Part shown: in pieces, positions 59,498 to 62,446 of the stretch
Position numbering within the stretch: the stretch's first letter is position 1
Layout: each line of letters begins with the position of its first letter
Source of the DNA: Owenweeksia sp.
GTDB lineage: Bacteria; Bacteroidota; Bacteroidia; Flavobacteriales; Schleiferiaceae
Assembly: GCA_028285465.1 (NCBI GenBank)
Contig: JANQPD010000010.1
Location: 1-64,000 of the forward strand
Length of the DNA: 64,000 nucleotides
Direction: 5' to 3'
Notes under the pieces: model-generated
Told to the model about the DNA's origin: nothing
Database searches by the model: none
The model's input: the letters and a program-made list of their open reading frames with translations, nothing else
Made by a program: the position numbers and the translations under genes

Positions 59498-60805
59498 ATG
59501 GAAAAATTAAAAGACCACTTTGCCACCAAAGTTGGCCCGGCCCTTAAAGATGTAAAAGACTTTGTTGCTGCACACGGAGATGAAGTGCTGGGCGAGATTA
59601 AAGTGAGCCAATTATACGGAGGCATGCGCGGCATGCCGGCCCTGATCACGGAAACCTCAAAACTGGATGCAGCGGAAGGCATCCGTTTCCGTGGCTACAG
59701 CATTCCCGAGCTGCAGGAAAAACTACCCGCATACCCGGAGGGAGAACAACCCTTGCCCGAAGGTATTTTTTACCTGATGCTCTTTAACGAATTGCCGGAT
59801 GACGATACCGTACGCCGGGTAAGCAACAACTGGGCAAGAAGGGCCACCATCCCCCCGCACGTATTTAAGGTAATTGATGCGCTGCCCATGACTACGCACC
59901 CCATGACCCAGTTTGTAACGGGGATTATGGCCTTGCGTACCGAAAGTGAGTTTCAACGGGCGTACCGGGCCGGGATCTCCAAAGCGGAGTATTGGGACCC
60001 CACCTATGAAGACGCCATGAACCTGATCGCGCGTTTGCCCCGCCTGGCGGCTTATATCTACCGGAGGATGTACCACAACGGAGCGCATATTGAGCCGGAC
60101 AGCAAGCTGGATTGGGCGGGTAATTTTGCACATATGCTGGGCTTCGAAAACGAGGAGTTCAGGGAATTGCTGCGTTTGTACATGACCATACATGCCGACC
60201 ATGAAGGCGGGAATGTATCGGCTCATGCCATACACCTGGTAGGCTCCGCCCTGAGCGATTGCTACCAGGCTTTTGCTGCCGGTATGAATGGCCTCGCAGG
60301 CCCGCTGCACGGCCTGGCCAACCAGGAGGTGATCCGCTGGACCCTGGCGATGCGTGACGAATTAGGCGGAGGCCTGCCTTCAAAAGAGCAGATCGCCAAC
60401 TATGTAAAGAAAACCTTAAACGATGGCAAAGTAATTCCGGGCTTTGGACATGCCGTGCTGCGCAAAACAGACCCCCGCTATACCGCGCAACGCGAATTTG
60501 CGCTGAAGCACATGCCGCATGACGAACTCTTCCAAATCGTAAGCCGCGTGTACGAAGTGGTGCCCGAAATACTACAGGCCACCGGTAAAGTGAAAAATCC
60601 CTGGCCGAATGTAGATGCACACAGCGGACAATTGCTGATGCATTACGGCCTTACACAATACGATTTTTATACCGTGTTGTTTGGCGTGAGCCGGGCATTG
60701 GGTACGCTGGCCAGTCTTATCTGGGACAGGGCACTGGGCTTTCCGATCGAAAGGCCGGGCAGTACCACTACTGCTCTGCTTAAAGAGCGCTTTGCCGCTA
60801 AATAG
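59498..60805 (+). CDS. citrate synthase, mitochondrial-like type
   Basis: Encodes 435 aa. It resembles the eukaryotic (mitochondrial) citrate synthase lineage rather than the E. coli GltA type: IHADHEGGNVSAH, AGPLHGLANQEV with catalytic H271, GFGHAVLRKTDPRY with H318, and NVDAHSG with D373. These match His274, His320 and Asp375 of pig citrate synthase almost in number. It condenses acetyl-CoA and oxaloacetate in the citric acid cycle. The NADH-binding site region of GltA is absent, so it is probably the dimeric form. It is the third gene of the carA-eno-citrate synthase unit and is followed by a terminator. Confidence 0.95.
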   Translation: MEKLKDHFATKVGPALKDVKDFVAAHGDEVLGEIKVSQLYGGMRGMPALITETSKLDAAEGIRFRGYSIPELQEKLPAYPEGEQPLPEGIFYLMLFNELPDDDTVRRVSNNWARRATIPPHVFKVIDALPMTTHPMTQFVTGIMALRTESEFQRAYRAGISKAEYWDPTYEDAMNLIARLPRLAAYIYRRMYHNGAHIEPDSKLDWAGNFAHMLGFENEEFRELLRLYMTIHADHEGGNVSAHAIHLVGSALSDCYQAFAAGMNGLAGPLHGLANQEVIRWTLAMRDELGGGLPSKEQIANYVKKTLNDGKVIPGFGHAVLRKTDPRYTAQREFALKHMPHDELFQIVSRVYEVVPEILQATGKVKNPWPNVDAHSGQLLMHYGLTQYDFYTVLFGVSRALGTLASLIWDRALGFPIERPGSTTTALLKERFAAK

Positions 60806-60865: not shown

Positions 60866-60912
60866 AAACCTTCCAGGTTTTTCAGCGGTATGGGGATAAA
60901 CCTGGTTTCCCA
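60866..60912 (-). repeat. 47-bp palindromic repeat, copy 1 (degenerate)
   Basis: Its first 40 bases match the reverse complement of the copy at 62112-62158 at 37 positions: AAACCTTCCAGGTTT, then the 17-nt loop with three differences, then AAACCTGG. The last seven bases have diverged. Together with copy 2 it forms an inverted pair about 1.25 kb apart. The 206 bp that follow (60911-61116) are strongly AT-rich and hold no gene. Confidence 0.85.
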
Positions 60913-61116
60913 ACCTTGTTCTTCTAGATATCAATCTATTCACTATAATTGTTCATAACTTTTTATTCTATTTTTATCTAGTCTAAATTACTAAATTAAT
61001 ATTGTTAAGTACTCTATTAGAGATAATTAGAGATTTATGGAGTGTTAGAATTGCTTTATTTGGTCTACTATAGACGGGCATTGAAGAAAAATTGTGTTTT
61101 CGTCAAGGGTTTTTCA

Positions 61117-61124
61117 TATCTTTG
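61117..61124 (+). promoter_or_regulatory. -7 promoter element upstream of the small island gene
   Basis: TATCTTTG matches TAnnTTTG; a possible -33 TTG lies 22 bp upstream (61092-61094). A transcript from here would run through a hairpin (61176-61205) and the tRNA-like structure before reaching the 153-codon gene at 61346. Confidence 0.5.
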
Positions 61125-61172
61125 AGGCGTGAGAATTAAGATAAGTACATATAGTAACCAAACTCATCAAAC

Positions 61173-61299
61173 AAAAAAAGCAACTGATTGCCGTCAGTTG
61201 CTTTTGATATTTAAGGATGCCCCCGCGTGGCGTGTATTGGCCTTGGTATGTCAACAACAGTCGGTTCGATTCCGACCGGGGGCTCTTTTACTTATAAAG
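61173..61299 (-). ncRNA. candidate minus-strand RNA A
   Basis: The minus-strand -7 element TATATTTG (61312-61305) would start an RNA near 61299. It ends at a perfect 12-bp hairpin AAAAGCAACTGA / TCAGTTGCTTTT (61205-61176, loop CGGCAA) followed on this strand by further T residues (61175-61173). The RNA, about 125 nt, is antisense to the tRNA-like sequence and to the probable leader of the gene at 61346. No open reading frame of note lies within it. Confidence 0.4.
61219..61284 (+). other. tRNA-like sequence (degenerate or truncated)
   Basis: It has a 7-bp acceptor-like stem GCCCCCG / CGGGGGC (61219-61225 with 61277-61283) and a canonical T arm with 5-bp stem GTCGG / CCGAC and 7-nt loop TTCGATT (61260-61276). 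Only 34 nt lie between acceptor and T arm, too few for normal D and anticodon arms plus variable loop; weak 3-bp helices are possible. No CCA is encoded. It may be a tRNA remnant, an old integration site, or a tRNA-like leader element. Confidence 0.5.
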
Positions 61300-61345
61300 T
61301 ATGACAAATATAGTAAACACTACCATCTTTAAAAAGTAGTTTATT

Positions 61346-61807
61346 ATGGAATTTCCAGAAGAAATATCAGGCGATGAAGAACGTGAGGCCTTGGCTTCTT
61401 TCTATCGATCCCAAGTAACCACCTATCAGGAAAAGGCCAACTATTACCTATCCCTTGTGAAGAAGTACACAAAATTGCTCGAAGAGATTGATGAGAAAGG
61501 GCTGATCGAGGCAAGTGCGAGGAAAGCTGGTTTTGACCAAAAATGGCCCTGGCTGCAAAAAATCAGGTTTATACTTTTCAACCAGGGGGAATACATGACC
61601 AGTAGACAAATAGTAGATACCCTTAAAAGCTATCAGCCATCGGTAACAAACCCTATCAAAAGCATTTCGGCTACGATAAGCCAAAATTCAGGTCAAGACG
61701 GGGAGCTTCACAAGTATTCGGCTATTGATGGCAACAACTATGTAGGACTAAAAGAATGGGAGGACATAACAGGCCACAAAAAAATACCCCCAATAGAGGG
61801 GGCATAA
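61346..61807 (+). CDS. hypothetical protein with coiled coil and winged-helix-like domain
   Basis: Encodes 153 aa. An acidic N-terminus leads into a predicted coiled coil (about 15-55, EKANYYLSLVKKYTKLLEEI). The C-terminal part (about 68-140, WLQKIRFILFNQGEYMTSRQ and ATISQNSGQDGELHKYSAID) has the helix and wing pattern of a HARE-HTH or similar winged helix, suggesting nucleic acid or protein binding. It is the only clear gene between the two inverted repeats. Its 3' end contains a hairpin that acts as a minus-strand terminator (61805-61778), so the candidate RNA B is antisense to the last 30 bases. The function is unknown. Confidence 0.7.
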   Translation: MEFPEEISGDEEREALASFYRSQVTTYQEKANYYLSLVKKYTKLLEEIDEKGLIEASARKAGFDQKWPWLQKIRFILFNQGEYMTSRQIVDTLKSYQPSVTNPIKSISATISQNSGQDGELHKYSAIDGNNYVGLKEWEDITGHKKIPPIEGA

Positions 61808-61954
61808 GAATGAGAAATCTCCTTCATGAAGGGAGTCAGTAGGCTGGATACTGTAAATATATGCTAGCCTAGTGTGCGTGTCTCATAAGCACGAAAGCCG
61901 AACAGGCTTAAAGCCTACTGTAAGCAGGGAAGACGTTACCTTCCCTGCTTTTCA
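61778..61954 (-). ncRNA. candidate minus-strand RNA B, structured
   Basis: A -7 element TACTTTTG at 61966-61959 would start an RNA near 61954. The 3' end is an intrinsic terminator: stem ATGCCCCC / GGGGGTAT (61805-61798 with 61791-61784) followed by six T residues. Between them lie an 11-bp 5' hairpin AAGCAGGGAAG / CTTCCCTGCTT (61950-61922), a 9-bp long-range helix CAGTAGGCT / AGCCTACTG (61920-61912 with 61845-61837) enclosing smaller hairpins, and a CTCC(C)TTC hairpin at 61835-61819. The length is about 175 nt. The plus-strand reading is also structured but ends in a weaker T tract. It matches no RNA family that I recognise. Confidence 0.45.
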
Positions 61955-62197
61955 TTTACAAAAGTATCACTTTTGTCTTTATCACTATCAGAGCGCTTTT
62001 TTCAGCTCTTCCTTAAAGCTATGATCTTTACCGTGGGAACCCTAATGTCCTTATCTTTCTTGAGCTCGGGTCTTTTCGTCATTTTGCGCACTTCTAAACT
62101 TGAAAGATACTAAACCTTCCAGGTTTATCTCCGTACCGCTGAGAAACCTGGAAGGTTTTTAAAAGAAAGTTGTATTGGTCAGCACACAGGACATCAA
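61808..62197. other. 390-bp gap without protein genes
   Basis: It contains most of candidate RNA B, an 8-bp inverted repeat ACAAAAGT / ACTTTTGT (61958-61976) that includes the RNA B -7 element, and the intact palindromic repeat at 62112. I see no protein gene here. Confidence 0.6.
62112..62158 (+). repeat. 47-bp palindromic repeat, copy 2 (intact)
   Basis: A perfect 15-bp inverted repeat AAACCTTCCAGGTTT / AAACCTGGAAGGTTT with a 17-nt loop. Each arm is itself nearly palindromic around CCTTCCAGG. A partly decayed copy lies in the opposite orientation at 60866. The compact palindromic form and dispersed copies recall REP or MITE-type elements; no transposase gene is in the window. Confidence 0.9.
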
Positions 62198-62446
62198 CTA
62201 ATCCATCTTTACCAGCTCCTCCATAGGTACATCCAATGCCTTGGCGATAATGGCCAGCTTGATAATGCTTATCCCCACTTTTGCTTTTTCTATTTTATAG
62301 AGGTACTGCCTGTCGCTGTAGATCCGGTTGGCCAGCTCGGTTTGGGTAATGCCTTTGGATTCCCTCAGCACCCGGATGTTTTGGCCTATCCTGATGGAAA
62401 CCTCCCTCCCAAACTTAGCTTGTTCTTCTTTGGAAAAATCTGACAT
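62198..62446 (-). CDS. XRE-family helix-turn-helix regulator
   Basis: Encodes 82 aa, a single HTH_3 domain: RIGQNIRVLRESKGITQTEL, ANRIYSDRQYLYKIEKAKVG and ALDVPMEELVKMD. It has no sensor or protease domain. Such small regulators are usual in mobile elements and toxin-antitoxin or restriction systems; no partner gene overlaps it here. It lies 40 bp from repeat copy 2. A near-consensus element (GACATTTG) lies just upstream of its start. Confidence 0.92.
   Translation of the reverse strand: MSDFSKEEQAKFGREVSIRIGQNIRVLRESKGITQTELANRIYSDRQYLYKIEKAKVGISIIKLAIIAKALDVPMEELVKMD

Follow-up and report, generated by a model that had tools for sequence, protein, structure and literature searches.

A coiled-coil protein gene of Owenweeksia sp. 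with candidate antisense RNAs at both ends: a possible module of mobile-element origin

The small-gene stretch near the citrate synthase gene of Owenweeksia sp. may represent a module derived from a mobile element, in which a coiled-coil, probably winged-helix protein is encoded together with a structured 3'-UTR RNA placed under antisense control, an interpretation that we favour tentatively. In the window, i.e. the whole stretch of 64,000 nucleotides analysed here, the citrate synthase gene ends at 60805 and is followed by a terminator, and the small-gene stretch lies after both (features are collected in Table 1). As the initial annotation had claimed, a plus-strand gene lies between two repeats, and two minus-strand units (RNA A and RNA B) each combine an exact TAnnTTTG element (TATATTTG and TACTTTTG, respectively) with a terminator, RNA A facing a tRNA-like segment and RNA B ending antisense within the last codons of the gene. 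The proposal that gene and flanking RNA elements form a compact module was likewise supported, since the whole order recurs in another genus (locus L057) and a convergent folded segment is found at distant relatives. This recurrence shows the compact layout to be genuine and conserved as a unit.

Table 1. Features of the locus in window coordinates
Feature	Position	Strand	Remarks
Left palindromic repeat copy	60866-60905		Interspersed; outside the functional unit
TATCTTTG, promoter-like element of the gene-strand transcript	61117-61124	+	Newly recognised
RNA A candidate	61168-61299	-	Promoter, tRNA-like complement and terminator; counterpart in L057
RNA A terminator hairpin	61176-61205	-	Also leader hairpin on the gene strand; L057 counterpart 2293-2330
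Degenerate tRNA-like segment	61219-61284	+	Acceptor and T arm perfect; D and anticodon arms shrunken
TATATTTG, promoter-like element of RNA A	61305-61312	-	Exact TAnnTTTG
153-aa protein ORF	61346-61807	+	N-terminal coiled coil, C-terminal putative winged helix
RNA B transcript candidate	61782-61958	-	Fully antisense to the 3' UTR
RNA B terminator	61784-61805	-	Inside the last codons of the gene
Structured 3'-UTR RNA	61808-61954	+	Consensus pairs with L057 (see text)
Gene-strand terminator	61922-61950	+	Last hairpin and T-run; newly recognised
TACTTTTG, promoter-like element of RNA B	61959-61966	-	Exact TAnnTTTG; kept in L057
Frameshifted small-ORF remnant (KDIRVP...SFKE)	61990-62077	-	Counterpart follows IS1595 transposase in L057; newly recognised
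Right palindromic repeat copy	62112-62158		Complete 47-bp palindrome; interspersed; outside the unit

The second copy came to light when the DNA of 88 genomes belonging to the same family (Schleiferiaceae) was searched, the RNA B segment being found in one other genus (genome G021, an uncultured Owenweeksia MAG) at 84% DNA identity; the L057 RNA B sequence is also present in CAKZRR010000015.1, from uncultured Owenweeksia. Locus L057 displays, in order, a hairpin, a tRNA-like segment with TACATTTG on the opposite strand, a gene for a 161-aa coiled-coil protein and a convergent RNA B, the terminator of which abuts the stop codon of the gene. The proteins of the two loci resemble each other weakly, with 21-26% identity in the aligned parts, and RNA B is thus far more conserved than its neighbouring protein. 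At the start of RNA B, the minus-strand TAnnTTTG element and the +1 region are kept exactly between the two loci, while the DNA upstream is not. Upstream of RNA B in L057, an IS1595 transposase is immediately followed by a small ORF.

TAnnTTTG is an established promoter element in Bacteroidota. The motif by itself is not rare in the analysed sequence (5 found against 3.1 expected); the three informative sites of the window are all found at the same places in L057, where TATCTTTG occurs as the same element at 2350-2343. Both minus-strand units fold better than shuffled sequences (z of -4.9 and -5.4). The promoter-like and terminator elements of both strands would be compatible with 3'-overlapping antisense regulation, in which convergent transcripts are complementary in their 3' parts.

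The view of RNA B as nothing more than a minus-strand RNA is doubtful: its promoter and terminator are conserved, but covariation and folding energy favour the gene strand. The gene-strand alignment of the window with L057 yielded 41 consensus pairs, 5 with compensatory changes and 4 kept via G-U, with none broken, while the minus strand gave 40 consensus pairs, 5 compensatory and none broken, and no one-sided changes kept via G-U. Such G-U-kept changes distinguish the strands, since the same changes would be C-A on the other strand. The gene-strand fold also reached the lower energy, over a slightly longer alignment. This covariation is suggestive of the gene-strand fold rather than proof of it, resting as it does on one comparison, since the searches yielded just two sequences of the RNA B family. 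With the gene strand offering the better-supported fold, the minus-strand transcript would probably act as antisense counterpart to a structured 3' UTR, which it would overlap completely.

Searches for further members of the RNA B family were carried out at several scales. No Rfam family (4227 models) exceeded the gathering threshold at the window RNAs or at the RNAs of twelve relative loci, the sole match among the relative loci being Flavo-1, located elsewhere in L075. Among 396 genomes of the order, the RNA B covariance model matched no further one, and when 84,980 genomes were scanned with 18-mers a convincing fold was obtained only in L057's own record (L068); a Sulfurimonas stretch scored 29 bits with RNA B, with pairs broken and much of the model missing.

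In the mechanism that we tentatively favour, the mRNA would extend from the element at 61117-61124 across pseudo-tRNA leader and gene as far as the terminal hairpin (61922-61950), while RNA B would be transcribed in the opposite direction, cover the entire 3' UTR and stop in the last codons of the gene. The ~150-bp duplex formed between RNA B and the 3' UTR would prevent the 3'-UTR fold and set mRNA stability, and RNA A, as a second opposite-strand RNA, would act in the same way at the leader. The analysis shows where the ORF and the promoter-like and terminator elements lie, that the layout is kept in L057, and the covariation; transcription of both strands, duplex regulation of the gene, DNA binding by the protein and a link to transposition are inferred. 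Bacillus offers known cases of antisense RNAs that overlap a convergent gene at its 3' end, namely the RatA/txpA and SR4/bsrG pairs, which the window module resembles in that a convergent gene and a small RNA overlap at their 3' ends and each has its own promoter and terminator (candidate elements in the present case). In contrast to these pairs, the protein is not a small membrane toxin but a 153-aa coiled-coil protein that probably binds DNA, and the 3' UTR is itself strongly structured. One point against the favoured model is that convergent genes often have bidirectional terminators.

No tRNA, defined as a cloverleaf with a 7-nt anticodon loop, was identified at the tRNA-like segment, with ARAGORN giving no match in the window and RF00005 placing none of the 32 tRNAs that it lists in the genome at this site; a known RNA family or tmRNA was ruled out via Rfam and ARAGORN. 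The segment has its nearest counterpart in a tRNA-Leu from the window genome, and the corresponding segments of L057 and the relative locus L110 are closest to other tRNAs, identities that we take from reading the sequences. In each of the three segments (3/3), the opposite strand carries an exact TAnnTTTG as well as a terminator. By their sequence, the segments are degenerate pseudo-tRNAs. An attachment-site copy of a resident tRNA was rejected on the basis of the T-arm/acceptor 26-mer, which is unique in the genome.

The winged-helix assignment is based on the sequence pattern of the protein and a weak match of one relative (L087) to HARE-HTH (PF05066; E = 0.0065, under the Pfam cut-off), and the window protein itself matched neither HARE-HTH nor known winged-helix families at the Pfam gathering score. 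Structure prediction was set aside as a means of judging the fold, since the AlphaFold model is too poor (mean pLDDT 46.6) and the coiled coil at residues 10-47 is its sole part with fair confidence. Pfam, NCBIfam, PHROGs, PADLOC and PDB gave no convincing family score for the protein, and the PADLOC defence models gave no match at E 0.1; among the relatives, PADLOC returned a weak HEC-01B match in L078 only (E = 0.001) and a control-protein match in L003. The protein is probably DNA-binding. Homologues were not found in phages, plasmids or viral contigs, and matches of a conserved 17-mer of the small ORF in viral contigs proved unrelated.

Profile searches revealed weak protein relatives elsewhere in Bacteroidota, with 15-25% aligned identity to the window protein and E-values mostly between 1e-3 and 1e-12 for relatives outside the alignment. 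At approximately eight of these a folded segment or terminator faces the end of the gene: a folded 109-180-nt segment with its terminator at the stop codon in L003, L075, L078, L108, L117 and L118, a tRNA-like complement with promoter and terminator like those of RNA A in L110, and a short promoter/terminator unit in L109. Under a strict rule (exact TAnnTTTG plus a terminator at the stop, with controls counted without the relatives themselves), the combination was present in 6/23 relatives compared to 4/133 control genes (p = 0.0008), an association noticed post hoc; without the two discovery cases it was present in 4/21 relatives (p = 0.013). The gene-strand fold was the stronger one in seven of eight loci, a modest signal (sign test p = 0.035). 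Several relatives (among them L087, L106, L107, L115 and L120) have no promoter-plus-terminator pair, so that only part of the protein family is concerned. Homologues lying without the flanking structures, named initially as a refuting condition, thus exist among the distant relatives, and the association is with a subset. The RNA B model gave no matches on the other RNA-bearing loci, and kinship of the distant RNAs is therefore by layout alone.

Some smaller observations were made at these loci. By eye, a UCUCAUWAG hairpin loop can be seen in the window, L057, L078, L108 and partly in L075. In L124 (the L110 locus; L127 and L125 are the L109 and L117 loci, respectively), the terminator loop of the tRNA-like antisense RNA (2620-2440, minus strand) shares the 9-nt word TACGAGGAC with the ribosome-binding region of the gene and could pair with it; this type of pairing was not found at the other loci compared. 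Pairing of RNA B with the ribosome-binding region of its own gene was rejected, as there was no excess compared to other loci and the 9-nt match at L110 is isolated. Other module copies adjoin a type I restriction operon (L126), an S24-like repressor (L073, the L003 locus) and obg (L128, the L075 locus), neighbours that we name from reading their translations. Crp-family matches (L004-L008) were set aside as not belonging to the same module, as were L091 and L092 (genomes G367 and G073), in which a tniQ-looking gene, a transposition accessory, has as its neighbour a 159-aa protein matched by the same profile.

Transposases adjoin the module in four loci, of the IS1595 type (confirmed by Pfam) in L057, L124 and L127 and of the IS1 type in L125. 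In eight genomes searched there were 0-3 such transposase matches per genome, and none in most, and since such matches are few, repeated adjacency to the module is unlikely by chance alone; mobile regions are generally enriched for insertion sequences and the adjacency was judged informally. The unit was probably brought by, or was cargo of, an IS1595-type element, the transposase of which is now missing here, as none was found in the window or its genome. While the transposase adjoining the module in L057, L124 and L127 recalls IS1595 insertion sequences with passenger genes, the window locus differs from these in having no transposase, and no terminal inverted repeats framing both the module and the transposase turned up in the relatives examined. 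The arrangement that defines IS1595 cargo, a module lying between such repeats with a transposase, was therefore not found, there being no convincing repeats and no transposase in the window genome. The few plasmid IS1595 copies that were opened held no module. In L096 (G021 contig C57, 1504-3403), a second IS1595 transposase, 52% identical, is directly followed by an unrelated 328-aa ORF, presumably of P63C type, showing that the passenger genes of these transposases vary. In L094 (G451 contig C29), a strongly self-complementary stretch of ~110 nt was seen by eye downstream of an IS1595 transposase ending near 2421, with no coiled-coil winged-helix gene near.

The transposase neighbours also bear on a different explanation, in which the gene-strand RNA is the partner of the protein, the two forming a protein-RNA complex from one transcript as in TnpB and serving an IS1595-type element, with the antisense promoter as a tuning device. 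This is unlikely. The reRNA/omega RNA of TnpB in IS200/IS605 is a transposon-encoded 3'-end RNA, and the likeness lies in a structured RNA directly 3' of a mobile-element gene and on its strand, which here is the better folded one; moreover, the 25-nt, largely unpaired stretch GCTGGATACTGTAAATATATGCTAG is identical in the window and L057. However, TnpB and IscB nucleases are absent from the module, searches of the 153-aa protein returned neither an RNA-binding nor a nuclease domain, the transposases next to the module are IS1595/IS1-type DDE enzymes, none is present in the window genome, and conservation extends to RNA B but not to the neighbouring protein, in contrast to what a coevolving pair would show. 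A TnpB/omega-RNA-like complex in the strict sense, with an RNA-guided nuclease upstream, was rejected, as the protein is without a nuclease domain.

Should the association hold, it would represent a Bacteroidota-wide module of protein and structured RNA that is not described by Rfam, Pfam, NCBIfam or PADLOC, and the open-licence papers searched contained nothing on such a module. There is also a paradox, in that between two genera conservation is far stronger in the RNA than in the neighbouring protein, and more distant copies share layout and not sequence. We know of no dedicated structured RNA of DDE transposases. IS1595 elements may carry structured RNAs more generally. The broadest version, which we regard as a long shot, is that IS1595/IS1-type elements of Bacteroidota carry an undescribed module of coiled-coil winged-helix protein and fast-diversifying structured 3'-end RNA with an antisense promoter, which controls or targets transposition or acts as a stand-alone RNA-dependent regulator.

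It is unlikely, too, that the locus is what remains of a decaying IS1595-type element and serves no function in this genome today. The absent transposase, the frameshifted small ORF and the degenerate tRNA-like segment would suit such a relic, as would the rarity of the module in the order, but the ORF of the gene is intact, compensatory changes have preserved the pairs of RNA B, and RNA B also has an intact promoter and terminator. Quite unlikely is an explanation in which RNA B acts on its own, as a small RNA of the minus strand with targets in trans, and the gene lies nearby incidentally: while its exact promoter, conserved start, strong terminator and greater conservation compared to the gene would agree with this, the fold and the G-U pattern favour the other strand, and distant relatives of the gene again have folded segments convergent to them.

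The weakest explanation is the original one, an island delimited by palindromes with a regulated gene and two minus-strand RNAs, which is highly improbable: the inverted repeats and the two minus-strand units are real, but single copies of the same repeat are found elsewhere between genes of this genome, and L057 has the module with no comparable inverted repeats found around it. Of the two inverted 47-bp palindromes described at first, the inverted copies are real (60866-60905 and 62119-62158, 93% complementary), but the left copy falls short of a full 47-bp palindrome, with the right arm lost or broken. The repeat arm AAACCTTCCAGGTTT (15 bp) recurs, as part of the same ~47-bp palindrome, in several further intergenic regions of the 3.84-Mb window genome, which identifies the palindromes as interspersed repeats rather than ends of the module, and their role as bounds of a ~1.3-kb island was therefore rejected. 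REP-type palindromes (PMC3733652, PMC2817692) are likewise short, intergenic and repeated in the genome, the difference being that only a handful of copies with the 15-mer arm were found in the window genome. A further palindrome pair was seen ~2 kb apart (G000:C88:929-975 and 2906-2952) around two ordinary genes, presumably a TatD-like hydrolase and an asparaginase-like gene, which also argues against a boundary role. Just past the right repeat lies a small HTH gene of Cro/C1 type (62198-62446, minus strand; HTH_3, E = 6.6e-13), and at the opposite end of the window, positions 1-441 hold the end of a 23S rRNA gene and a 5S rRNA gene.
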